Assembly (NCBI RefSeq): GCF_004335015.1
Contig: NZ_RQRU01000001.1
Location: 558,001-622,000, forward strand
Reading direction: 5' to 3'
Length of the DNA stretch: 64,000 nucleotides
Source: Psychrobacter pygoscelis
Lineage (GTDB): Bacteria > Pseudomonadota > Gammaproteobacteria > Pseudomonadales > Moraxellaceae
In this document: positions 3,258-60,409 of the stretch, in pieces
Layout: every line of letters starts with the position of its first letter
How positions within the stretch are numbered: the first letter of the stretch is position 1
Position numbers and translations under genes: made by a program
The notes under the pieces: generated by a model
Seen by the model: only the letters and a program-made list of their open reading frames with translations
Databases searched by the model: none
Told to the model about the DNA's origin: nothing

Positions 3258-4538
3258 ATGGCTGAATTAAACTTAACCTTATTATTAGGCCGAGCTGAGC
3301 ACTTCAGAATCTTATTTAGTAAAACAACCGCTATCATCGGGCTAGGTATTACTTTAACGAGCTGCCAATCTGTGAAGACTATATCGCTGGATAATGCTAG
3401 TCAGCCTTCTAACCCATCTTCTACTTCTACTATACCGAGCATAGAGTTAGCTATGCCAGCACCGGAAAACTTAAAAACCGATCTGCCAATATGGGCTAGT
3501 GGCTATGACTGGCAATTACAGCGAGTTCTTGACGCCAGTGGCACGGCTATCGACGTAAGCTCACAACCCCCTATAGCGCTTGAAATACAGCCCAGCACTC
3601 TAGATTTTCAGCAGGATTGCGATATTTATAGATTAGACTTTTTACTAGGAGGGCCGCGATTTCCTTATCATACTTCTGTAATTAATAAAAAGCAGCCCGA
3701 GTGTGTGGGCAACAGAGGCATGGATAATAAAGCGGATTTAGACAATGCAGACAACACAGATAGCCGTGAAGACAATAGTCTCAAAGCCTTACTTCCTAAT
3801 TACCCTTATTTCAATTTCAATCTTCAGCTGCTTCCCATCCCGCCATCTTTCAGCAACCCTTCAATAGCCAATACCGATCGCCATGCTGCCAGACAACTGG
3901 CACTGGCTATTGAACACGGTAATACTTTTATCTTTCAAGGACAGCCTAAAGTGCTTGCGGAGCCTAGTGGGTTACCCATAACTAAAGCCATCTTAGAGGA
4001 GTATCAATGGCGACTCGTCAGCGCGGCTAGTAATCACTATGACGAGGACGGTAAGCTGGTTTCAAGAGAGCCCATTGGTGATTTTTATCATCCTGATTTT
4101 CCTGTTACGCTTCGCTTTAAGGGTTATCCAGACAGTCGCCACTGGCAAGAAGCCAGCTTTAACTCCAATTGTAACGAAGTCGGTGGTCCCTATGCTTTAT
4201 TGGAAGATTACACTCTGCTGGTTGGGTTGACACCCCAAACGGTAATGGGTTGTGGCTTAAATGGCAATAGGATAAATGAGCACCTGGCTAAACTAGTGAA
4301 TTACAGTGAAAGCAAGCTGAACTTGAGCCTGCAACTGTCGACTACCAAGCCGACAGATTTTCCACGCTATAACTTACTACAGACCATGTCGACAGGGGAG
4401 ACGCTAGTTTGGCAAAATGAACCGCTGCCAGAACGTAAATCTCCAGTATTAAAGTCTGAAGAATCACCCTCTGCGGCCGAAATAGATTATCTTGAGACCA
4501 CGCAACCTACCACTAATATAGAACTGCCGAATGAATAA
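3258..4538 (+). CDS. Lipoprotein with two META/HslJ-like domains
   Basis: The N-terminus is hydrophobic and ends in LTSC, a lipobox at about residue 36, so an envelope lipoprotein is predicted. After a Ser/Pro-rich linker come two related domains, about residues 75-240 and 240-400. Each opens with a YDWQLQRV or YQWRLVSA strand. The second carries NCNEVGG and TVMGC, the pair of cysteine motifs typical of META (HslJ, DUF306) domains, and ends in LSLQLS plus GETLVWQNEPL. META proteins are linked to outer-membrane or stress functions, but no specific role can be assigned. ATG 3258 is preceded by AAGGG. It is followed by a strong hairpin terminator. Confidence 0.7.
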   Translation: MAELNLTLLLGRAEHFRILFSKTTAIIGLGITLTSCQSVKTISLDNASQPSNPSSTSTIPSIELAMPAPENLKTDLPIWASGYDWQLQRVLDASGTAIDVSSQPPIALEIQPSTLDFQQDCDIYRLDFLLGGPRFPYHTSVINKKQPECVGNRGMDNKADLDNADNTDSREDNSLKALLPNYPYFNFNLQLLPIPPSFSNPSIANTDRHAARQLALAIEHGNTFIFQGQPKVLAEPSGLPITKAILEEYQWRLVSAASNHYDEDGKLVSREPIGDFYHPDFPVTLRFKGYPDSRHWQEASFNSNCNEVGGPYALLEDYTLLVGLTPQTVMGCGLNGNRINEHLAKLVNYSESKLNLSLQLSTTKPTDFPRYNLLQTMSTGETLVWQNEPLPERKSPVLKSEESPSAAEIDYLETTQPTTNIELPNE

Positions 4539-39786: not shown

Positions 39787-42003
39787 TTAAAATAAAAAGT
39801 AGCGCTGGGCCATCGGCAACACACTCGCAGGCTCACAAGTTAGCAGCTGACCATCAGCGCGAACCTCGTAAGTCTCAGGGTTAATGTCCATGTCGGGGCA
39901 GTAGCTATTTAGGCGCATGTCACTTTTGCGGATTTGGCGAATGCTGTGCACGGGTTTGACAATTTTGTTCAGGCCTAGCTCTTCCTTGATGTCGTTTTCA
40001 TGAGCGACCTTCGAGACAAAGGTGATGCAAGTCTCATGCACGGGCCTCGCAAAGCTGCCAAACATGGGGCGATAGTACACGGGCTGCGGCGTGGGGATAG
40101 AGGCGTTAATATCGCCCATCGGCGCGGCAGCGATAAGGCCGCCTTTGATGATGCAGTCGGGTTTGACACCGAAAAACGCCGGCGACCACAACACTAAATC
40201 GGCCCATTTACCCACCTCAACCGAACCGACTAGGTCACTGATGCCGTGAGTGATGGCAGGGTTGATGGTGTATTTGGCGATATAGCGCTTGATGCGAAAG
40301 TTGTCGTTGTCCGTCTCGTAATCCGCGTCAGAAAACTGAATATGCCCCGCATTGGCCTCACTATCTGCGGCGACGTCTGGCGCAAGATGACCGCGTTGGC
40401 TTTTCATCTTATCGGCAGTCTGCCACGTACGAATGATGACTTCACCGACGCGGCCCATGGCTTGCGAATCACTGCTCATCATCGAGATAGCACCGAGGTC
40501 GTGCAGGATATCTTCGGCGGCGATAGTTTCCTGACGGATACGGCTTTCGGCAAAGGCGACGTCCTCGGCGATAGCAGGGCTTAGGTGATGACAGACCATG
40601 AGCATGTCGAGATGCTCGTCGATGGTGTTGATGGTGAATGGTCGGGTCGGGTTGGTCGATGACGGCAAGACATGCGGTACGCCGATGGCCTTGAGAATAT
40701 CAGGGGCATGACCACCTCCCGCACCTTCGGTATGAAAGGTGTGGATACAGCGCTCTTTAAAAGCGCCAAGCGTACTCTCAAGGTAGCCACTCTCATTTAA
40801 GGTGTCGGTGTGGATGGCGACTTGCACGTCGTACTCGTCAGCGACAGTCAAGCAGTTATCAATGGCCTGCGGTGTGGTGCCCCAGTCTTCGTGCAGCTTA
40901 AGACCGACCGCGCCCGCTTTAATTTGCGCGGCAACAGGGTCTGGTAAGCTGACGTTGCCCTTGCCGAGTAGGCCAATATTCATCGGCACATCATCTAAGG
41001 CTTTGAGCATCATTTGGATGTGGTACGCGCCGGGCGTACAGGTGGTGGCGAGCGTACCTTGGGCAGGTCCCGTACCGCCGCCAAACATGGTGGTGACCCC
41101 AGACATGAGCGCCGTCTCGCACTGCTGCGGGGCAATAAAGTGAATGTGGGCATCAATACCGCCTGCGGTCAAGATTTTGCCCTCGCCTGCGATAATTTCA
41201 GTGCCTGCGCCGATATGGATGCTGACATCCGGCTGGATGTCCGCATTACCTGCTTTACCGATGGCGCTAATGCGGCCGTCTTTGATAGCGACGTCGGCTT
41301 TGATGATGCCCGTATAATCGACAATTAGCGCGTTGGTGATCACCGTATCGGCGACTCTAGCGTCTGGCTCTTGACCTTGCCCCATGCCGTCACGGATGAC
41401 CTTGCCACCGCCGAACTTGACCTCCTCGCCGTAAGTGGTAAGGTCTTTTTCGACCTTGAGCCAGAGGCCCGTATCTGCCAAGCGAACTTTATCGCCTGTC
41501 GTTGGGCCAAAATGCTCAGCGTAAATGCGGCGAGATATTGTCTTGGTTGACGGCTGCGTTGATTGCTGGATAGTATCTATAGCCGCCTTGTCTTCTGCGC
41601 TATCTAACGCGCCCATGACGTCACCACGGAAGCCATAAACTTCGCGCTTGCCTGCCAATGCGACCAGCTCAATATCTCGTGATTGACCCGGTTCAAAACG
41701 AATGGCCGTTCCTGAGATGATATTAAGTCTAAAGCCTGTGGCCAATTCGCGGTCGAATTCTAGCGCGCTATTGACCTCAGCAAAGTGATAGTGTGAGCCA
41801 ATCTGAATCGGACGGTCACCAGTGTTGGTGACGGTAAGCCTAATTGTCGGTCGCCCTTGGTTAATAACAATATCGCCATCCGCAATATCGTAGCCACCGA
41901 TGGCTGCTGGTGACTCAAAGTGTGGCTCGGGCTGGTTACTACTGGCTAATGGTTGCTTAGCACTGTTAGAATCAGAACTTTTAGAATTAGGCTCTTGGCT
42001 CAT
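39787..42003 (-). CDS. ureBC: Urease beta-alpha fusion subunit
   Basis: One 738-residue polypeptide containing both UreB and UreC. Residues 1-35 are a Ser/Asn-rich extension; 36-133 is the beta subunit ([34 protein letters not shown]); 134-155 is a linker; from about 156 the alpha subunit begins [19 protein letters not shown]. Nickel ligands of Klebsiella UreC are all conserved with a constant offset of 152: His286, His288, Lys369 (carbamylated), His398, His424, active-site Cys471 and His472, and Asp512. Urease hydrolyses urea to ammonia and carbon dioxide in the cytosol. Separate ureB and ureC genes are the norm in bacteria. No stop or frameshift is visible at the junction. Confidence 0.97.
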
Positions 42004-51010: not shown

Positions 51011-51919
51011 ATGCCTCATCTTACTAGCAATCTGGGAAAAAACACTGCAAATGCTGACCACTCCAAAAGTCTTAGCACGGCAACGTCTCTTACTGGGGTA
51101 CAGTGCCCTATGGCCAATGACAATAACGACAACAATGACAATGGAGCTGGCACTATAAACAGTACCGATAGCATAACTAATATGGCCAATGGTAAGGCAG
51201 CAATGACCACTATGCCCACAGTGACTCAGATGGCGCTACGTCAATGTGGGCGGGTTGTACTGATCGCTAATAACCCCTCTATTACCACCGCCACTTTGGA
51301 TGAATTACTACGCCCGACAGACTTGATAGTATTGTTTAATCACTTTATTCATGCCAATTATTTTGCAACCAGTCCTACGGCATGCGCCTTACCTAAGCTC
51401 CTGTTTTTTCGTCAGATTGGCGATAGCAAACTGCATTTTGGCATGCCGCCACGGCACAATAACCTCCCAGCTATTGAAACGATGGTAGATAATGCTTCCA
51501 TAGGGTTTTTATTTAGCAATACCGACTATCAGTTCCCCGACTTACAAGACGATCCTAGTCCCGATGACGACCCTATCGATGACAGTGTCCAGTTGACTAT
51601 TACAGCGCCTTTAAAAGCAATGTTAAATGATAGCGCTTACAGTCGGGCTATTCGCGAGGCGCATCAAGTCGTTGCCGATTATCCCCATTTTGAAGATATT
51701 CATTCTTCTGCCCCCTCCTCTGGCTTCTTTATTTACCGAGTGATGATGGGTATTCGTCATTATCTTGCAGCGCACTACCAACATAACTTAGAGATCATCA
51801 TGGTCGGCTTTAATCATGATCATAAGACCGATTATTTTTGGCATGGGCACAACTGGATATTCGAGCGTGAGGAGCTGGCTCGCCCGCCAGACGGGGTTAC
51901 GGTTATTCGTCAGTATTAG
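51011..51919 (+). CDS. Uncharacterised protein, possible glycosyltransferase
   Basis: 302 residues; no firm family. The first 75 residues are low-complexity, with an Asn/Asp run (NDNNDNNDNG) and Thr/Ser. The folded part begins RVVLIANNPSITTATLDELL, then TDLIVLFNHF, and ends SSGFFIYRVMMGIRHYLA, LEIIMVGFNHDHKTDYFWHGHNWIFERE. The order of an N-terminal nucleotide-site-like strand, a mid NxF and a late SG-helix-GF pattern recalls bacterial sialyltransferase-type (GT42-like) proteins, but this is a weak resemblance. Location beside four glycosyltransferases supports a glycan role. The start is uncertain (weak ribosome site); ATG 51110 is possible. An 'orphan GT' is the best reading. Confidence 0.45.
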   Translation: MPHLTSNLGKNTANADHSKSLSTATSLTGVQCPMANDNNDNNDNGAGTINSTDSITNMANGKAAMTTMPTVTQMALRQCGRVVLIANNPSITTATLDELLRPTDLIVLFNHFIHANYFATSPTACALPKLLFFRQIGDSKLHFGMPPRHNNLPAIETMVDNASIGFLFSNTDYQFPDLQDDPSPDDDPIDDSVQLTITAPLKAMLNDSAYSRAIREAHQVVADYPHFEDIHSSAPSSGFFIYRVMMGIRHYLAAHYQHNLEIIMVGFNHDHKTDYFWHGHNWIFEREELARPPDGVTVIRQY

Positions 51920-52007
51920 TGTCTATTTGATGTTCAATAGAAGCTAATAAATGACTACCAAATTAGCCGAAGTAAAATTTAGAGATTTTAAGTCACTTTA
52001 AAACGGC

Positions 52008-52046
52008 AAAAGTCCCATTACTCACTAAAGTAATCGGGCTTTTTTG
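52008..52046. terminator. Terminator between convergent genes
   Basis: AAAGTCCCATTACT and AGTAATCGGGCTTT pair with one mismatch and a G-T pair, with a T-run on the plus side and A-rich flank on the other. It separates the 51011 gene from the minus-strand cluster. Confidence 0.75.
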
Positions 52047-52103
52047 CTATAACGTACTGTACTGTGTGGCATTACTGCTAGATAACGTTAGGGAGGGACA
52101 AAG

Positions 52104-53099
52104 CTACCCAAAAGGCGCATTAGGATAATAAGCCTCTGCCACCTCTTTAGCTGAAGGCAAGCGGGTAATAATGATCGGGGTATCTTGTGTAGCCTCCCAG
52201 TCGATCAGCCCCATATCAGCAAACTGTGCCAACCAGCCACTCATAGGCCAGTGCTGCCATTTATCATAAAAGCGATTGGCATTAATCACGATACTGGACA
52301 AGTGGTTGAGCGGCGGACGATAGACGCTGTGCTGCTGATGATAGACCACATCAGCGCTCAGATAGAAGTCGACATTGAGCGCGCGGGCCATAAAAGCAAA
52401 GTCTGTATCTTCTGCCCCATAGCCGATATAATGGGTATCAAAGCCACCGAGCTTTTTAAATAGGGTCTTGGTGATAGCAAAGCTTAGACTCCAAAATGCC
52501 CCATAATCTTGCGTTCGCTTCATGACAGGGTCTTGCTCAGATAGGTTGTAACGATAAGGGTTTAATACTGACAAATCATCAAGCTTAGGTGACATCGCTT
52601 GCGCATCAGCCAGTTGCCTGCCTTCCTCCTCAGTTAGCGGCCGAGTCAAATAGCGCGGTTGCGCCATTAGTAAGGCATGCGGATAGTCATTCAGCTTGGT
52701 CAGCAGCCCTTCTATAGAGTCATACGCGACAATACAGTCAACGTCTAAAAATATCAGCGACTCAAAGCTGGCGCTATTAGCCCCAACATTGCGATTGCGG
52801 CCGATATCAAACCCTATCTTTGGCGCTAAACTGTCTGCTGCATCTTTGGCTCCTTGCTCGGATTGGTAACCAATCGTCGTCGGCACCTGAATAATATTTA
52901 GCCCAAAACTATCCAAGCGTGACTGCTGTGCATCATCGTTTACGATAATAACCTCAGCGGGTCGGACGCTACCTGCTGCAAGGCTTGCCAGCAAATTGTA
53001 CAAGTGCCGATTCCGCCCATAGCACGTGGTAATAACACTAACTGCAGCTACAGACGAAGGCGCTAATATAGAAGGTGACGCATTTACGGAGGTAGGCAT
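52104..53099 (-). CDS. Glycosyltransferase, GT2 with galactosyltransferase-like C-terminus
   Basis: 331 residues. N-terminal GT-A fold: VSVITTCYGRNRHLYNLLASLAAGSVRPAEVIIVNDD, then the DxD motif in SLIFLDVDCIVA near residue 135. C-terminal part has GGFDTHYIGYGAEDTDFAFMARAL, the glyco_transf_7C pattern (G-x-EDxDxxxR). Such enzymes add a single hexose or HexNAc from a nucleotide sugar in the cytosol. It is the last gene of the minus-strand cluster. Donor and acceptor cannot be read from sequence. The first 15 residues are disordered, so the true start may be a little later. Confidence 0.8.
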   Translation of the reverse strand: MPTSVNASPSILAPSSVAAVSVITTCYGRNRHLYNLLASLAAGSVRPAEVIIVNDDAQQSRLDSFGLNIIQVPTTIGYQSEQGAKDAADSLAPKIGFDIGRNRNVGANSASFESLIFLDVDCIVAYDSIEGLLTKLNDYPHALLMAQPRYLTRPLTEEEGRQLADAQAMSPKLDDLSVLNPYRYNLSEQDPVMKRTQDYGAFWSLSFAITKTLFKKLGGFDTHYIGYGAEDTDFAFMARALNVDFYLSADVVYHQQHSVYRPPLNHLSSIVINANRFYDKWQHWPMSGWLAQFADMGLIDWEATQDTPIIITRLPSAKEVAEAYYPNAPFG

Positions 53100-53221
53100 A
53101 ACCTAATCGTTTCCAGTTAACTTAAAGATGCTTTAATGAAAAGATGCTTGAAAGTATAAGTAGCTTGAAGTTGAAAAAGCTGGCTTAAAGCAAGTATGAA
53201 TGATGGCCATTGGCATATGAC

Positions 53222-54628
53222 TTATTGAGTAACTGGTCGTTCTGGGCTGAGCCTAAGCCTAGGCAATAGCCAAGCATAAAACCAAATTCTAACATTGTCT
53301 GCTTTGGCTAAACTGCTGATAAATTCATCACTGATGCTCTGGTTAAGCTGAGCTTGTAGCTTAGCACTAGGTATCGCTAGTCTCTTCAAAGCCAACGTAT
53401 CTGTATTGGTAGTTGGATTAGTAGCAGTATTAGTGGTTAGCACTGTCTTGTCAGCAGACGCTATCGTCGTTGCTGGTGCAGTACTACAGCGGTCACTATT
53501 AAAATGAGTTAATAAGTCCTCAAAGCTTATTGCTCGGCCACAAGCAATTAACCCCTCTGCCATCATCTCTTGCTCACGGTGCGGGCGCGTGTCTGGAATA
53601 ACCACTAATGGCGTGGTAACTTGACACGCTTCGCTAATAGCGTTTAACCCACAAGACATCACCAGCAAGTCACTGAGCTGTAAGTAAGGCATAACCTCAT
53701 CTACTTGAACAGCAATATCGACAAACCCTTTTACCGCTGACGCTATAGGACCAAGGGAGATAATAAAGGCACCGGGCATAATTTGTCTTAACAAAGCTAA
53801 CTGAGCATCAATCTGAGCATGACCGCCAAAGCCCTTTATTACCGTGACAATTGGAGCGCGGTGCTTCAGCTTCTTGATTAAAGTTGAATTAACCTCGCTA
53901 TCGTTACTGAAATCGGCAGCATGACTGATTCTATCATCACTACTATCGACCAGATCGCTATTATTAAGCGCTAACTTATGTCTAGATGACGACAGAAAAT
54001 GCAGGCTAATTTGCTTAATAAGGTCTTCTTTCGTCCTCTTAGACTTTGACACTAATGGGTCCGCCACAAAGCCAAGATAAAGGGTCTTTTGCTTAATCCA
54101 AGTGGGAGTGCTAGGTGCTTCTAGACATTCTGGATAAGCAGCGAGCAAGCCAAGCGCACCTTGAAAGGCATTACGGTGTGGCATATCGTCTCGCTCACCT
54201 GGCAAGCGCACGTATAGATAGGGAATACTGGCAGCACGGCATAGCAGTGCCACTTCGACAGAAAGATCAATAATCATTAACTTAATCTGCCGCGTTGCAA
54301 TTTGCTCCAGTAACGTCAGACTTCGCGACTGGATATCAACATTACCCACAGGAGAGTAATGCATACTGCTTGGCTGCCAATACTCGCCTACCCTTCCCGG
54401 TAATACCTCATCAGAACGCTCATCTTCTGGCGGTAGCCGGACCACTTGATCGCCAGCGAGGTGCGAAAAGGAATAATCCTCCTTCGTCGTACTGGTAAAG
54501 ACGGTCAAAACATCATCATTATTGTCATTGTTATCATTGCCGTCTAGAGCCACTAGCCAAGCAGCGAACTTATCAGCTTGCCGACAATGTCCTGAACCAT
54601 GATGATGTGCATAATAGCCGATTCGCAT
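53222..54628 (-). CDS. GT-B glycosyltransferase, MurG/GT28-like
   Basis: 468 residues. The start MRIGYYAHHHGSGHCRQADKFAAWL is a GxGH-type N-terminal motif of GT28/MurG-like enzymes. The C-terminal half has PIVTVIKGFGGHAQIDAQLALL, GAFIISLGP, SDLLVMSCGLNAISEACQVTTPLVVIPDTRPHREQEMMAEGL, the donor-binding region with the Gly-x-N and the PHREQ loop. An Asn/Asp-rich insert (GNDNNDNNDD) sits near residue 30, and a Ser/Thr-rich insert near residues 360-400 looks disordered. Its start is 9 bp after the stop of the GT4 gene, so they are cotranscribed. Confidence 0.78.
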   Translation of the reverse strand: MRIGYYAHHHGSGHCRQADKFAAWLVALDGNDNNDNNDDVLTVFTSTTKEDYSFSHLAGDQVVRLPPEDERSDEVLPGRVGEYWQPSSMHYSPVGNVDIQSRSLTLLEQIATRQIKLMIIDLSVEVALLCRAASIPYLYVRLPGERDDMPHRNAFQGALGLLAAYPECLEAPSTPTWIKQKTLYLGFVADPLVSKSKRTKEDLIKQISLHFLSSSRHKLALNNSDLVDSSDDRISHAADFSNDSEVNSTLIKKLKHRAPIVTVIKGFGGHAQIDAQLALLRQIMPGAFIISLGPIASAVKGFVDIAVQVDEVMPYLQLSDLLVMSCGLNAISEACQVTTPLVVIPDTRPHREQEMMAEGLIACGRAISFEDLLTHFNSDRCSTAPATTIASADKTVLTTNTATNPTTNTDTLALKRLAIPSAKLQAQLNQSISDEFISSLAKADNVRIWFYAWLLPRLRLSPERPVTQ

Positions 54629-54637
54629 AAATGATGC

Positions 54638-55906
54638 CTAAACAGCCTGCATTTGACTGCTATTCTCAGCCCTAACTAGTGGCATTGTTGCCAAGGCTGT
54701 TGATGCTCCTAGCTCATGATAATCTGAACCATCCTGACTAAGAGTACGCTGATACAAGCTAAGGTATCCAGATACCATAGCCTCTACTGAGCAGAATCTC
54801 TCAGCGCGCCTGCGACATGCCGCTCTTGATAGATGGCCAACTTGCTCAAATGCAGCGATAAACTCATCCCTAGCAAGCTTGGGGACGATAATACCGACGT
54901 CGTCTGAGAGTATCTCGCGCCCTGCTCCAACATCAAAGGCGATCACCGGCGTTCCGCAAGCAAGGCTCTCGGCCAGTGTCAAACCATAAGGCTCATCCCA
55001 GGTACTGGTAAACAACATAGCGGTCGATCTGGTCAGCTGCTCATTGATTTGCACCTTACTTAAATGTCCCACATACGTCAGTAGGCCGCGACCACCTGCC
55101 TCGGTGGCATCTTCTGCTAGTAAGGGCGCCACTTCCGCATCAAAATACTCTTGATTACTTCTTGGCCCTGCAATGATCAGCCGCTTATTCGCGGCCAAAC
55201 AATACTGCATCGCAAGGTGCGTCCCCTTCTCTGGGCAAATACGACCAAACCAAAAATAACACTCGTCCTCTATAGGCATAGTATTGGCACTAAAGGAAGC
55301 CACATCTACGCCATTATTCACGACGATAGAAGATACAAACTCTTGGTATAACCGCTGCTGAAAGCGGCTAATACTCGTAAACTGCGTGTTAGTCCCATAT
55401 TGTAGCGTCAACAAGGCAATTCGCAGATGGGCAAAGATAGGCGTGTGAAAGGTCGTTATCATCCGCTTACCTAACGCTTGACCACTCAGCATCGGGACAT
55501 GATGTAAGCTATGGTTATGAACAATATCAAAGCGCTGCCCCTGCCCTTTAGCGCCGCTATCGATACCAGTCCCCTCGATAATCTCACGCATGACATCTTG
55601 ATAGATATGATATTGAAATAGCTCATCACGGCTCATGCCCAAGGAGACGTGTTCGTTTGGGTAGATTTGTGCCTCAAAGCTTTCTCGCGACATCAAAGGG
55701 CGCAGGCGAGCGTTGGTTTGGCTGGCTTCGTGTGCGAATAATGTCACCTCATGACCACGCTCAGTGAGCGCATCGCATAACAGCTGAGTGATCATCTCTA
55801 AACCGCCAGCATAAGGCTCAGCGATGGGATAAAGCGAATGTGCAATAATAGCAATGCGAAGTGGTCTATCAAGCATAGAGGACTGGGTATTTTGATTCTT
55901 CTTCAT
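54638..55906 (-). CDS. GT4-family glycosyltransferase
   Basis: 422 residues with a GT-B fold. N-terminal domain: RIAIIAHSLYPIAEPYAGGLEMITQLLCDALTERGHEVTLFA, FDIVHNHSLHHVPM, ITTFHTPIFAH. C-terminal domain: CYFWFGRICPEKGTHLAMQ, LTYVGHLSKVQINEQLTRSTAMLFTSTWDEPYGLTLAESLACGTPVIAFDVGAGREIL, containing the EPYGLTLAE (EX7E) motif and a retaining-type active site. Adds a sugar to a lipid or saccharide acceptor. The second gene of the minus-strand cluster. A tail of about 30 residues after the fold is low-complexity. Confidence 0.85.
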   Translation of the reverse strand: MKKNQNTQSSMLDRPLRIAIIAHSLYPIAEPYAGGLEMITQLLCDALTERGHEVTLFAHEASQTNARLRPLMSRESFEAQIYPNEHVSLGMSRDELFQYHIYQDVMREIIEGTGIDSGAKGQGQRFDIVHNHSLHHVPMLSGQALGKRMITTFHTPIFAHLRIALLTLQYGTNTQFTSISRFQQRLYQEFVSSIVVNNGVDVASFSANTMPIEDECYFWFGRICPEKGTHLAMQYCLAANKRLIIAGPRSNQEYFDAEVAPLLAEDATEAGGRGLLTYVGHLSKVQINEQLTRSTAMLFTSTWDEPYGLTLAESLACGTPVIAFDVGAGREILSDDVGIIVPKLARDEFIAAFEQVGHLSRAACRRRAERFCSVEAMVSGYLSLYQRTLSQDGSDYHELGASTALATMPLVRAENSSQMQAV

Positions 55907-56188
55907 AACTCTCTGTCTGTTTCTGTGGTCTTATGATTAGCGGGATTCGTAGAAGGCGTTTATGCAGCGTCATATACTGACTTAGACCTAGTTCCGAATT
56001 ATTCTAGCTTGCGGCGCAGCTCCTAAGAGATCACGCCAGAGGTTTCACAACCTCCTCTAGCTTCACTCGGATAGTGTTTAGAAGGCCTGTATAGACAAAC
56101 GCCATCTAGACAAAACACCAGTAGTGGATAAAAACCAACAGCATCAATGTCGCTCAATGCCGCTTGTTGTTTGTTTGAAGCAGTGTAT
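55907..56188. other. Gap between GT2 synthase and GT4 genes
   Basis: A 282-bp stretch with no coding frame; it could contain an internal promoter. Nothing specific was recognised. Confidence 0.4.
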
Positions 56189-58240
56189 TTAGGCAACCTT
56201 TGGATCAGAGCCTAATCGAGAGCCTTTAGAGTTATACTGAGGGTTAGCGTTATCAGGTATCGCTTGAGCACAAAAAGCAGAATTAGCTTGGCTGGTAGAC
56301 TGTTGGTGCATCACCTCCGAGTCGCTAACTGCTACCTTAGCGCTTGACCCTACAAAATTTGCGATGATAACCCAACCCGCCATCAGCTTAATCATCAATA
56401 AGCTAAGCGCGCACACCAGTAACGCTAAAGAGTGCCGTCTCACTAAAATTGCCGTCAAGACATTCAGCACAATTAATAGCTTAGGCGTTACCCAAATATT
56501 AGTCATAATAGACTTTAACCGTGATTGTGATGTCCCGTGCTTCGGTGTACAAATAAAGGGTTTTTGCTGTCCCCAAAGTACAGGTAGCCAAGACAATGCA
56601 CCATGCTCCCAAAAATTTAAATGCACAAGCCACATTCGTAACCTAGCATCTAAAGGCTTAATAGCGGACTTGGAGCGAATAGTAGTATGTGCTGACCTGC
56701 CCGGTGGTGAGCTTTTTCTATTGCTTTCTACTTCACCATCACCATCTTGCTTTCTACTAAAGCACTTATTAATAATGTTTACTAACCGTTTCGGCGCAAG
56801 TTTTGCTGCTGTACTCGCTAGCGTTTTTATTAGGCTTGTACGAATACTTCTATTTGTTGCAGGAGGCGCAGCTGACTGAGCGCCAGTGTTACGTTCGGGT
56901 TGCTGACTCAATGGCTCAGCAACTAATGGCCGAGTATCTCTTAAATACGCTACCAATCGCCGAGTTAAATAAAGAGCATAAGCAAGATAGCAGACGGTCA
57001 GTACTGTCAATACATGGGGAATAGCTTTGGGCTGGTTGCTTAGTTTGGCGATGGCCAGAGTAATTAATGCGGCCGAATGTAATCCTATAAATGGACCAGT
57101 GAAGTTCACCCAAGCGGTCAACTGTGATAAATGCGCCCTAATATGCGCCACTTTAGTAGCGAAGCTTAGAGCTAAAGGAGCCTGCACATCTGAGACCCCC
57201 TGATTGCAATCATATTGAGCAACGATTGACGTCTTTAACTGAGATTGAGAGAAGAAATGCGTACGAGAATGAGAGGAGCGGCGCAGATAAAGAGCCAGTA
57301 CTTGCATATTGCCGTAGATCCAGCGCTGACGCTGACAGATAAGGTCACTCATGGTCTGAGGCAACAACCCTGTTGCAATTACTTCAGGGATGAATTGGCT
57401 ACGCGCCCCTTGCCGATGCATCAGAATACCCATTTGCGCATCTTCAGTGATCGAGGCCCCTGACCATCCTCCAAGTTGCTCTAACATATCCTTTTTAATG
57501 ACCGCAAACGTACCCGTTGATAACGCATAGTAACGATTCAACCCGCGACTAATATGATAAGTAAAATAGTGGTTTAACTCGCTATGAATGTCTGGCTTAT
57601 CAGTATCTCGATAATACTGCGGAAACTGCAATAAGGCATGATTAGGATTCTGCTTTATCGCCTCAATGATCCGTCGCCGCGCTGTAGGTAGCGCTTGATA
57701 GTCGCTATCAACGACCACGATATACTCACAAGTAGTGTCGGTCATTTTTAGCGCAAGATTTAAAGCCCCAGCCTTAAACCCTGGAATACGATCCTGATGA
57801 ATAAAACGCACTCGGAGCGACTTATCAAGTCCCTCACAATACGCTTGTAGTGGCTCATAAAGTGCTTTGTCATTATGATTATTATCGACGACAATGATCT
57901 CATCACTAGCACTTTTTATCATCAATAACGCAGCTATCGTCTCTAGCACCATATCGGTAGGCTCAGCCCGAGTCATAATATGAAAGCTAATACCCACTTG
58001 CTGCTCAGTCTTTTTTTGCAGACGCTTTAATACATAAGGCACGCTAAACGACGCTAAATTCCAAGCGGCAACTTTGTAGATCCTATTTTGATTACTATTA
58101 TTTGCACCATCGTAATAATACTCTATAGCTTCGTAGAACAGGTTATTATTATTTATAAAATCAATAAGATAAGGAACAAATATTAAGATACTCGTAGGCA
58201 TGGAGTAATGAAGATCGTTGTTCGAGATAAAAGCAGTCAT
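56189..58240 (-). CDS. Membrane GT2 synthase, cellulose-synthase-like
   Basis: About 683 residues. The cytosolic GT-A domain has all processive GT2 signatures: EIIVVDNNHND, YIVVVDSDYQA (DxD), SGASITEDAQMGILM (TED) and ICQRQRWIYGNMQ (QxxRW). At least one N-terminal (residues 14-32) and several C-terminal hydrophobic segments anchor it; the C-terminal text PFICTPKHG corresponds to the FxxTPK motif of glucan/mannan synthases. A Lys/Arg-rich loop separates the two C-terminal membrane pairs. No PilZ domain or bcsB partner is seen, so it is not a standard cellulose synthase. ATG 58240 follows GAGG; 58252 lacks a site. Confidence 0.8.
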   Translation of the reverse strand: MTAFISNNDLHYSMPTSILIFVPYLIDFINNNNLFYEAIEYYYDGANNSNQNRIYKVAAWNLASFSVPYVLKRLQKKTEQQVGISFHIMTRAEPTDMVLETIAALLMIKSASDEIIVVDNNHNDKALYEPLQAYCEGLDKSLRVRFIHQDRIPGFKAGALNLALKMTDTTCEYIVVVDSDYQALPTARRRIIEAIKQNPNHALLQFPQYYRDTDKPDIHSELNHYFTYHISRGLNRYYALSTGTFAVIKKDMLEQLGGWSGASITEDAQMGILMHRQGARSQFIPEVIATGLLPQTMSDLICQRQRWIYGNMQVLALYLRRSSHSRTHFFSQSQLKTSIVAQYDCNQGVSDVQAPLALSFATKVAHIRAHLSQLTAWVNFTGPFIGLHSAALITLAIAKLSNQPKAIPHVLTVLTVCYLAYALYLTRRLVAYLRDTRPLVAEPLSQQPERNTGAQSAAPPATNRSIRTSLIKTLASTAAKLAPKRLVNIINKCFSRKQDGDGEVESNRKSSPPGRSAHTTIRSKSAIKPLDARLRMWLVHLNFWEHGALSWLPVLWGQQKPFICTPKHGTSQSRLKSIMTNIWVTPKLLIVLNVLTAILVRRHSLALLVCALSLLMIKLMAGWVIIANFVGSSAKVAVSDSEVMHQQSTSQANSAFCAQAIPDNANPQYNSKGSRLGSDPKVA

Positions 58241-58403
58241 GCCAAACCTCATTAAATAACATTATAAATTTAAGTAAATCAACAATCTATTTAACCTTAA
58301 AACCCATGGTAAAAAATATAATTATTAATCTAAGAGTCTATATTAGCTGTATAGTCATTGGTCAATGATATAGTCAATAAAAAATATAGTAGCTACGCAT
58401 TAG

Positions 58404-58439
58404 ATTTGTCGTGATATGAATATTTGTCGTGATATGAAT
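58404..58439 (+). repeat. 18-bp perfect tandem duplication
   Basis: ATTTGTCGTGATATGAAT occurs twice back to back at 58404 and 58422. Confidence 0.9.
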
Positions 58440-59097
58440 GTAGATAAATAGCAAATAAAATCTATACCGAAAAACAAGCGTCTGAGATTTTAAGACTGGC
58501 AACTTCTTTATTGGCTCATTATAGTTGTGTCTAAATAAAAAAGAGTAAGCGGTATTAGAGTTGTAATATTTTATATATAATGTCGTGAAAAATCATGATC
58601 TCTGGTATCTAGAAATATTCAAAGCATAGAGTGAAACGAAGAGCTGTATAATTAGACTTTGGATTAAAACAAACTTATTCAATCCCTTAAATCAAATATT
58701 TAATATTAATTATTATTTCTATGGTTTCTAACGTACAAATTTTCTTTATACATTATAGTAATTGTATTCTTAATTTTAATACATCATTAAAATGTATCTA
58801 TGGGTTGTATTATGTTATCGTTGGTAAATTTTGCATCCCAAATTTTAAAATAATATTCCAGTATGCTTAATCAAATAAATTAAATGAGATATTAACCTTA
58901 TTATATATTTTTAATTACAAAATAAATTTCTTTACAATCTTATATACTTATACAGTCAGAAGGACAGCAAAAGAAGTAAGAATAACTTTAAACATAACAC
59001 AGACATTCCTTTTTTTAGCCTACTGCAAGCATACTCGATAGAACCTATAAATAACCTGCCCCAGTATCACTGTGCTATTTTTAGATTGCATTCACCA

Positions 59098-59232
59098 TAG
59101 TTAATCCTATTTAAAACTACTACATAAAAGAGTGGCTGATATAAATTTATTGGCTATAGTCGTGAGATGACTGAGACGGGCGTACATTTATTCCAGCGAC
59201 TTTGTATCAAATCTAAAATGGATTGACTATAT
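59098..59232 (-). repeat. Dispersed intergenic repeat, copy B
   Basis: On the minus strand this reads ATATAGTCAATCCATTTTAG at its start and TTTTAAATAGGATTAACT at its end, matching copy A (28391-28525) along its whole length at about 83 percent, in the opposite orientation. Confidence 0.8.
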
Positions 59233-59491
59233 ATTATTAGATGAAAATACGGATACGCTTGAGAACGCATTAATTTATGCTGATGGTTTTACGTTAGCTT
59301 TAGGGCGGATTATAGGTTGCTAGAGGTAGCCGTACGATAGCTGAGTACTAGCGCAAGAGGCGCTCAGCTATCATCGAGAGGGGGTTTGAGGTTTTGAATG
59401 CAGATAAGATAGCATTAATACTCTAACTCGTGGCTTAAGAGCTTATATCTAAGACCTGATATGACAACAAAGTCTGACTATATTATGCTTG

Positions 59492-60409
59492 TTAGGCAAG
59501 CGTTGCTGAATTTAAAGATGATACAGCGGTGTGAATATCATTACCACGCTGCTGCAAAACTTGGTCTAGGTTCAAAACAGGGCTGGCATTATCCGTCTCA
59601 GCTAAGTTAAAAGGCGCTAACTCACTATGCAAAGCGACGACATCGCCCATTATAAGTAGGGCGGGAGTGGGCAACTGAGCCTTGGATTGTTTGGCAGCGA
59701 TATCTTTTAGCGTACCAATAAGAATTTGCTGCGTGGGTAGACTGGCATGACTGATAATGGCAAATGGAGTTTCAGCATCACGTCCCGCCGCTATTAAGCC
59801 CTTAGTCATCGCCTCTAAGCGGTGCAGTCCCATATAAAAGACAACCGTCTGTGTTGGATCGAGTAGCTCACTGTAGTCATTGTTTGGTACACCTGCCTTT
59901 TTACAAGCGGTGACAAACTTGACTGACTGTGCATGATCACGATGTGTCAGTGGAATACCTGTACGACTTGCAGCTGCACTAGCGGCGGTAATACCGGGGA
60001 TAGACTCAAAGCGAATGCCATGACGCACCACTTCTTGTAGCTCCTCACCACCACGTCCAAAGATAAAGGGGTCACCACCTTTTAAGCGCACCACGCATTT
60101 ACCGGCTAGAGCATGTTTAACCAATAGCTCATTGATGCCTTCTTGTGGTACGGCATGATTGTTTCGGCGCTTACCGACAAATATTTTTTCAGCGCTCATC
60201 GCACACATATCTAAGATATCTTCTGACACCAGACTGTCATAGAGCACCACCTCGGCTCGCTGCATGACACGAAGCGCCTTTAGAGTCAGCAATTCTGGGT
60301 CGCCTGATCCAGCACCGACCAAATGCACAGTACCGACAGCGCCAGTATGCAGCGTATCCGTTCGAGTTGAAGTCGTAGAGTCAGGAAGAATATTTGATAG
60401 TGTGGTCAT
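59492..60409 (-). CDS. cobA: Uroporphyrinogen-III C-methyltransferase
   Basis: Methylates uroporphyrinogen III to precorrin-2, the branch to siroheme and cobalamin. 305 residues; the first 25 are low-complexity. The SUMT fold shows VHLVGAGSGDPELLTLKALR, VVLYDSLVS, RLKGGDPFIFGRGGEE, ESIPGITAASAAASRTGIPLTHRDHAQSV, and FYMGLHRLE. It follows nasA by 142 bp, so it probably supplies siroheme for nitrite reductase. GGAG is about 9 bases before the ATG. The single-domain form lacks the CysG dehydrogenase/chelatase half. Confidence 0.95.
   Translation of the reverse strand: MTTLSNILPDSTTSTRTDTLHTGAVGTVHLVGAGSGDPELLTLKALRVMQRAEVVLYDSLVSEDILDMCAMSAEKIFVGKRRNNHAVPQEGINELLVKHALAGKCVVRLKGGDPFIFGRGGEELQEVVRHGIRFESIPGITAASAAASRTGIPLTHRDHAQSVKFVTACKKAGVPNNDYSELLDPTQTVVFYMGLHRLEAMTKGLIAAGRDAETPFAIISHASLPTQQILIGTLKDIAAKQSKAQLPTPALLIMGDVVALHSELAPFNLAETDNASPVLNLDQVLQQRGNDIHTAVSSLNSATLA

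Follow-up and report, generated by a model that had tools for sequence, protein, structure and literature searches.

A five-gene glycosyltransferase locus in Psychrobacter pygoscelis

The stretch of the Psychrobacter pygoscelis genome considered here (64,000 nucleotides; assembly GCF_004335015.1, contig NZ_RQRU01000001.1, positions 558,001 to 622,000), hereafter the window, in which all coordinates are given, contains a block of four glycosyltransferase (GT) genes, referred to below as the cassette, and a convergent orphan gene. The source genome (G000) amounts to 3.41 Mb in 36 contigs. An earlier reading of the letters alone, the original prediction, had placed four minus-strand GT genes and one converging protein in this region, and all five open reading frames (ORFs) were found in their places. 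The gene order on the minus strand is as follows: a membrane GT2 (GT2m; 56189–58252, 687 amino acids (aa); PF13632 and PF00535), a GT4 (54638–55906, 422 aa; PF00534 and PF13439), a GT28-like GT-B enzyme (53222–54628, 468 aa) and a GT2/GT7C-type enzyme (GT7C; 52104–53099, 331 aa; PF10111 and PF02709). The last three are termed the core, and the glucan-synthase-like GT2m is the proposed head. The orphan (GTx; 51011–51919, plus strand, 302 aa) is a predicted GT29/GT42-like transferase for which a role in capping with an acidic sugar is proposed. The first ATG of GT2m puts the end of that gene at 58252, 12 bases beyond position 58240, where the predicted cluster had been delimited.

The Pfam matches agree with the membrane GT2, GT4 and GT2/GT7C classes originally assigned. 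The GT28-like protein and GTx gave no Pfam match at E ≤ 1, and GTx gave none in NCBIfam either. The AlphaFold2 model of the GT28-like protein (predicted local distance difference test score, pLDDT, 77.9) displays a clear GT-B fold, closest to YjiC (Z 20.9) and MurG (Z 19.7), as expected from its initial description as a MurG/GT28-like enzyme.

Pfam searches covered the five genes of the locus, and the remaining ORFs between 46 and 64 kb were judged by eye. Among the latter we saw no flippase, polysaccharide ABC exporter, polymerase, Wzx/Wzy or bcsB, and Pfam detected no PilZ domain, in agreement with the claim that the locus explains neither a standard capsule nor cellulose. Cellulose was rejected as the product: the match to TIGR03030 reaches 84.5 bits against a cut-off of 699.1, with PilZ and bcsB missing as just described. 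Nor did a match to any named polysaccharide locus turn up in the accessible parts of the open-licence literature.

The upstream side of GT2m (58253–59491, no strand assigned), presumably the promoter side, is devoid of ORFs of 90 aa or more, and the GC content for 58001–60000 is 0.347. Promoter and terminator scans returned no more than shuffled sequence did, and Rfam gave zero matches at gathering thresholds. Judging gene names by eye, the locus is flanked by metE on one side and by a cobA/nitrate-reductase pair.

Conservation of the cassette within Psychrobacter

Each protein was searched for in 57 genomes, including 36 of the genus, the source genome among them. All four GT genes were matched in 23 of the 36 Psychrobacter genomes, and the set is missing from the remaining 13, one of which (G025) retains a GT7C remnant with a stop codon. 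The strand and order of the four genes are kept in all 23 neighbour loci (L157–L179, from 22 genomes). Since four-gene matches recur in so many genomes with order and strand preserved, the arrangement is not due to chance, and the four-GT block is a real conserved unit. GTx is present in 19 of the 36 genomes and adjoins the cassette every time.

Spacing within the block varies. The GT4 and GT28-like genes overlap by one base in 11 of the 23 neighbour loci and form a single ORF in G002, while the distance between GT2m and GT4 ranges from 16 to 282 bases, the window having the widest gap (a figure of 505 for L163 stems from a broken GT2m and was left out of the range). The genes surrounding the cassette differ between loci, although some recur. 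A plasmid stretch of P. urativorans R310.10B (NZ_CP012709.1) carries GT4, GT28-like and GT7C genes and part of GT2m in unchanged order and orientation, without GTx. One genome, G034, has two cassette copies; in one of them (L178, contig 25, 7635–8483) an ORF that appears, by eye, to be transposase-like breaks into the GT28-like gene.

Outside the genus, GTx was found in zero of 273 other gammaproteobacterial genomes searched. Full-length matches to the GT28-like protein are confined to two of 369 gammaproteobacterial genomes, the source genome and G226, and 184 others scored at most 64.4 bits. In G226 (L180, 3795–10364), the GT28-like gene stands with an opposite-strand GT7C, a GT4 of another branch and a different GT2, an arrangement resembling the Methylobacterium form L042.

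The core trio in alphaproteobacteria

A tblastn search of plasmids with the GT28-like protein retrieved 37 records. GT4, GT28-like and GT7C genes stand together in annotated neighbourhoods of Rhodococcus, Sulfitobacter, Croceicoccus and Paracoccus, and ORFs reveal the trio in Methylobacterium also; the GT7C proteins of the first four genera are 32–34% identical to that of the window. A scan with one genome per species found at least 561 stretches in other genomes that code for a relative of the GT28-like protein, a number confirmed for this protein only. The best 80 of these loci, nearly all of which are named as alphaproteobacteria, were inspected for the cassette (their ORF lists hold the longest ORFs, with rough start sites). 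A clustering of neighbouring genes contained numerous shadow ORFs and did not enter the counts.

GT28 is encoded in 80 of these 80 loci, GT7C as an ORF of its own in 78 and GT4 in 78; in L100 and L123 GT28 and GT7C share one ORF. In every locus the core is adjoined by a head ORF resembling sucrose-phosphate synthase, mostly with a phosphatase domain; that of Croceicoccus matches PF05116 with 206.5 bits and TIGR02472 with 355.5 bits, the latter under its cut-off of 576. Genes for candidate cap enzymes fall into two kinds, sulfotransferase (38 loci) and pyruvyltransferase (18 loci), which never occur together; one or the other is thus present in 56 of the 80 loci, and 24 have neither. The chance of such zero overlap would be 1e-6 for independent loci, which these are not. 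Neither kind has a Pfam match among the five window genes.

Some of the 80 loci are irregular. The head ORFs of L082, L088 and L115 (477–481 aa) are too short for both synthase and phosphatase domains. The cassette of L118 (Asaia platycodi) looks broken, with the head gene and GT7C in several short ORFs, and L110 is labelled Arthrobacter and has a cassette of Sphingomonas-like appearance.

Phylogenetic trees of the GT28-like, GT4 and GT7C proteins each place the genus on one long, well supported branch. The trees carry long-branch warnings, and no donor lineage is claimed because of them. One Methylobacterium copy with a stop in its translation was omitted from the GT7C tree. Alignment A2, in which one row (L042:9111-9969) is out of frame, served for inspection of conserved columns only. 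Taken together, it is very probable that the core trio is common to the Psychrobacter cassette and the alphaproteobacterial one, that the two represent a conserved pathway, and that the Psychrobacter form differs in its head and includes an orphan as well.

The membrane glycosyltransferase GT2m

GT2m was originally described as a membrane GT2 with complete D, DxD, TED and QxxRW signatures. These are all present (DNN, DSD, TED and QRQRW) and, in addition, the sequence PFICTPK stands where cellulose synthases have their gating loop FxVTxK. About 85 residues precede the GT domain, and about four hydrophobic segments follow QxxRW, with none before the GT domain in most members. Pfam detected neither PF00332 (GH17) nor PilZ. 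Among the 13 Psychrobacter genomes that do not have the cassette, none yielded a GT2m-like match.

Searches with a GT2m profile (A6) found relatives in 27 other gammaproteobacterial genomes (160–193 bits, maximum 192.9; reading frames of 817–960 aa). All 11 that were inspected carry the loop F-x-R-T-P-K and are of the GH17–GT2 type; two were submitted to Pfam and contained GT2 and GH17 (PF00332 at 27.8 and 33.1 bits, the former just below the cut-off of 28.2), the other nine being assigned by motif and length. With the same profile, the best cellulose synthase chain scored 67.9 bits, in a search separate from that which gave 192.9. The nearest relatives found for GT2m thus appear to be the GH17–GT2 (NdvB-like) glucan synthases. 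Cyclic beta-(1,3)-glucan has been put forward as the product of such 'Orphan'/NdvB proteins (PMC10237404). OpgG-type osmoregulated periplasmic glucans were rejected as an explanation, MdoG being unmatched in all 36 Psychrobacter genomes; this absence leaves room for GT2m without proving its role. The defined short glycan or glycolipid suggested in the original prediction is at most a candidate product, because the nearest relatives of GT2m are GH17–GT2 synthases and its gating-loop signature is like theirs.

The orphan protein GTx

The orphan had been noted for a faint sialyltransferase-like pattern. Structure prediction, which had been suggested as a check, produced a fold match of moderate strength that points the same way. 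In the AlphaFold2 model (pLDDT 73.5; 119 of 302 residues at 90 or above), the highest-ranking comparisons made with VIA-align are to ST3Gal1 (Z 8.9; 183 residues, 4.3 Å), ST8SiaIII (8.4), an archaeal HPPK (7.5, third in the list), ST6Gal1 (7.4) and CstII (6.1), and the sixth row drops to 4.8. GTx is read as sialyltransferase-like because four of the top five rows are sialyltransferases. A motif HNWxFE (HX4E), which we take to be sialylmotif VS, lies near the C-terminus of all 18 unbroken members aligned and is preceded by the motifs N-N-P/Q-S/A and P-S/T-S-G.

At the sequence level, no relevant PDB chain was found for GTx at E ≤ 5. Relatives were detected neither in plasmids (E limit 0.01) nor in phages (0.1), and the GTx profile had no match among the ORFs of loci L041–L126. 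A viral fold library gave one match at E 3.4e-5, to an uncharacterised mimivirid protein; a GT29-named protein and a poxvirus sialyltransferase appeared there at E 0.1 and were not used as proof.

Sialic acid is an unlikely donor, because NeuB (PF03102) is absent from the source genome and unlinked to GTx in the genus, occurring in 5 of 19 GTx-positive and 5 of 17 GTx-negative genomes; it was therefore rejected. PF02348, which includes both KdsB and NeuA, is represented in 35 of the 36 Psychrobacter genomes. If one such protein is KdsB, the obvious candidate would be cytidine monophosphate-3-deoxy-D-manno-octulosonic acid (CMP-Kdo), which is the presumed donor for GTx. A weak CTP-transferase match is located on contig C22 of the source genome, in an apparent surface-polysaccharide locus.

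An apparent link to the general stress response

In Sphingomonas melonis Fr1, genes #3506, #3507, #3508 and #3509 are among those most dependent on EcfG and carry no description other than glycosyltransferase or 'Exopolysaccharide biosynthesis protein'; a lacZ fusion was used to test the upstream region of #3505, taken as a putative indirect target of EcfG (PMC6599016). The same study prints a motif and a distance for each gene, the motifs of #3506–3509 being 24–25-mers. These four motifs were located in the S. aquatilis cassette (L112) with 1, 2, 1 and 0 mismatches; counted from there, the distances given in print end exactly at the start codons of the GT28-like, GT7C, GT4 (GTG) and pyruvyltransferase genes, respectively. 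Five control motifs from the same table had zero matches at up to four mismatches in the loci examined. For some of the four, further matches with 4–5 mismatches occur, chiefly at the corresponding position of other Sphingomonas cassettes. The fit of motifs and distances to L112 therefore indicates that the core appears in print as a stress-dependent operon. Placed through the S. aquatilis motifs, #3506, #3507 and #3508 appear to be the GT28-like, GT7C and GT4 genes of the core, and from the gene order in S. aquatilis we infer that #3505 is the sucrose-phosphate synthase-like gene.

A strict EcfG-like motif precedes the head gene in 8 of the 80 loci, compared with 59 of 8886 background windows, which speaks for the stress link; since just these 8 head genes carry it, direct control by EcfG was rejected as a general rule. 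The spacer allowed in the strict motif was 16–18, versus 17–20 in PMC6599016, and the upstream stretch of L089 was shortened. The accessible passages of that study assign no product to #3505–3509 and do not name the head. The original prediction regarded the locus as the best candidate for an undescribed system in the window. As stated, this view is not supported, in that the core trio recurs in 80 loci elsewhere and its Sphingomonas form is apparently in print as EcfG-dependent (PMC6599016).

Proposed pathway and alternative explanations

We propose that the locus is the Psychrobacter version of a modular glycan pathway, with an exchanged head, and that its product is an oligosaccharide or glycolipid of the cell envelope that is acidic and protects against stress; we would put the probability of this reading at roughly 40%. 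In the alphaproteobacterial loci the head would make a primer, the core would attach a short, defined sequence of sugars, and negative charge would come from the cap enzyme. In Psychrobacter, the head would be replaced by GT2m, a synthase of the NdvB-like beta-glucan type without GH17 and PilZ, and the cap enzyme by the convergent GTx with its sialyltransferase-like fold. GT2m might then produce a short beta-glucan-type chain or a glycolipid head at the inner membrane, which the core enzymes would extend or branch and GTx would cap with an acidic sugar, presumably from CMP-Kdo.

Several observations weigh against this proposal. A cellulose-type synthase extrudes its chain while synthesising it, so cytosolic enzymes of the core could hardly act on such a chain. 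No product, substrate or phenotype for any member of the cassette was found in the accessible open-licence literature. The stress evidence is alphaproteobacterial, with nothing direct on Psychrobacter, and the genome in which the motifs were matched is that of S. aquatilis, not of S. melonis. The cap is proposed by analogy, and no sulfotransferase or pyruvyltransferase was found nearby in 24 of the 80 loci. As for GTx, the fold match is moderate, Z values of 7–8 being common without a clear match according to the VIA-align notes; Foldseek returned no PDB match for the model at E ≤ 0.001, and the sialyltransferase models of Pfam had no match at E ≤ 10 in 18 GTx members. GTx is not visible in 4 of the 23 cassette genomes, although in one of them (G014) the contig ends nearby. 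Furthermore, some copies are decayed: GTx is split into two ORFs in L162 (G009) and L163 (G010), GT2m is in pieces in L163, one of the two G034 copies has an interrupted GT28-like gene, and stops occur within the GT4 matches of G014 and G028. The pathway therefore looks dispensable. Finally, no sucrose-phosphate synthase gene was found at the window locus by ORF list and Pfam, but across the genus the search was made with PF05116 and not with the synthase domain. PF05116 did give matches in the genus (up to 37.5 bits, to part of the model, above the Pfam cut-off of 20.3); they are read as general haloacid dehalogenase (HAD) phosphatases because 11 of 14 control genomes were also positive.

As an alternative, GT2m might be non-processive, like HpnI or a glucosylceramide-type GT2, and glycosylate a membrane lipid, with the core and GTx then assembling on it a defined head group that remains membrane-bound. 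Such a lipid-linked acceptor would be within reach of cytosolic core enzymes, and the four discrete GTs, the lack of a polymerase or exporter by eye, and the hydrophobic segments gathered at the C-terminus, with none ahead of the GT domain in most members, fit this idea, as does a weak match to HpnI (16.6 bits against a cut-off of 310). Nevertheless, the nearest relatives of GT2m are GH17–GT2 glucan synthases with a gating loop, and in the 80 loci the core adjoins a soluble-looking head, so that a lipid acceptor is seemingly unneeded there; we therefore regard this explanation as rather doubtful. It is also conceivable, though quite improbable in our estimate, that the genes are merely neighbours responding to the same stress, GT2m making and exporting a linear beta-glucan while the core trio, with or without GTx, makes a separate soluble oligosaccharide. 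GH17–GT2 proteins are described without such partners (PMC10237404), the core is accompanied by a different head elsewhere, and the GT2m–GT4 gap of the window is the widest of all. The distribution of GT2m speaks against independence, for every one of the 23 genomes with the cassette has a match and the 13 others have none, and the four genes lie on the same strand in every neighbour locus.

A role in building the outer core of lipooligosaccharide (LOS) or a surface polysaccharide appears very improbable. GT2, GT4 and GT7C enzymes are common in LOS and surface polysaccharide loci, and the predicted fold of GTx may resemble that of CstII, an enzyme that caps LOS; moreover, the LOS of P. arcticus is rich in glucose (PMC4515632). 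However, the set is missing from 13 of the 36 Psychrobacter genomes, the related loci elsewhere have a head like sucrose-phosphate synthase, which is foreign to LOS, and no LOS gene was seen by eye beside the cassette. The modular pathway proposed above might extend to an undescribed and widespread class of acid-capped stress oligosaccharides, in which one core would be combined with interchangeable heads (sucrose in alphaproteobacteria, a chain made by a glucan synthase in Psychrobacter) and with interchangeable caps, namely sulfate, pyruvate or an acidic sugar, the last attached by the new GTx family with its sialyltransferase-like predicted fold, maybe from CMP-Kdo. This generalisation is speculative and we consider it unlikely.

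The modular reading would give an anonymous set of GTs, found together in nearly all 80 loci, a common identity and a testable class of product. In S. melonis Fr1 the core seems to depend strongly on the general stress sigma factor (PMC6599016). GTx would represent a compact family of bacterial proteins whose predicted fold is sialyltransferase-like, encoded in a genome that lacks NeuB. Should the head indeed have been swapped, the exchange of one enzyme would have re-wired a cytosolic stress-sugar pathway to the cell membrane.

Elsewhere in the window

A 738-aa ORF without internal stops is located at 39787–42003 on the minus strand; by eye, it reads as an in-frame fusion of the beta and alpha subunits of urease. 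It lies in a patch of higher GC content (0.545 for 40–42 kb).

Comparison with known systems

The closest solved relative of the core GT4 is glucosylsucrose synthase TeGSS (tll1591; PDB ID: 7FG9), with a score of 116.8 bits. TeGSS transfers glucose to sucrose (PMC9909042), and in T. elongatus its gene stands near a sucrose-phosphate synthase gene, as does the core in the 80 loci. Residues R179, K184 and W254 of TeGSS are kept in the core GT4 (Arg179 corresponding to R222), whereas the catalytic Tyr18 is replaced by Ala33 and the acceptor-rim residues R117/T119/N122 by P/F/L; the numbering of TeGSS includes an offset of 3 deduced from the alignment. The core GT4 was rejected as a glucosylsucrose synthase on account of the replaced Tyr18. 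It works in the same kind of setting as TeGSS and is not necessarily the same enzyme.

With the GH17–GT2 synthases GT2m shares the GT2 domain, the DNN/DSD/ED/QRxRW signatures, a gating loop (FFRTPK versus PFICTPK) and the absence of PilZ, but it does not have GH17 and hence is devoid of the cyclising part. GTx has the C-terminal HX4E and two upstream motifs in common with the sialyltransferases of families GT29 and GT42 (ST3Gal1, CstII), which it may also resemble in its predicted fold (Z 6.1–8.9), and differs from them in having no match at the sequence level and in residing in a source genome without NeuB. That a protein of the GT29 type may use CMP-Kdo has been proposed before, for RCKT1/MGP2, a putative Kdo transferase of rhamnogalacturonan II (RG-II) (PMC11288761); this precedent is a plant enzyme. 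Among complete gene sets, the nearest counterpart is that of S. melonis, #3505–3509, which resembles the window locus in its adjoining GT4, GT28-like and GT7C homologues and is distinguished from it by a presumed sucrose-phosphate synthase-like head (#3505) and a pyruvyltransferase, neither of which was found at the window locus.

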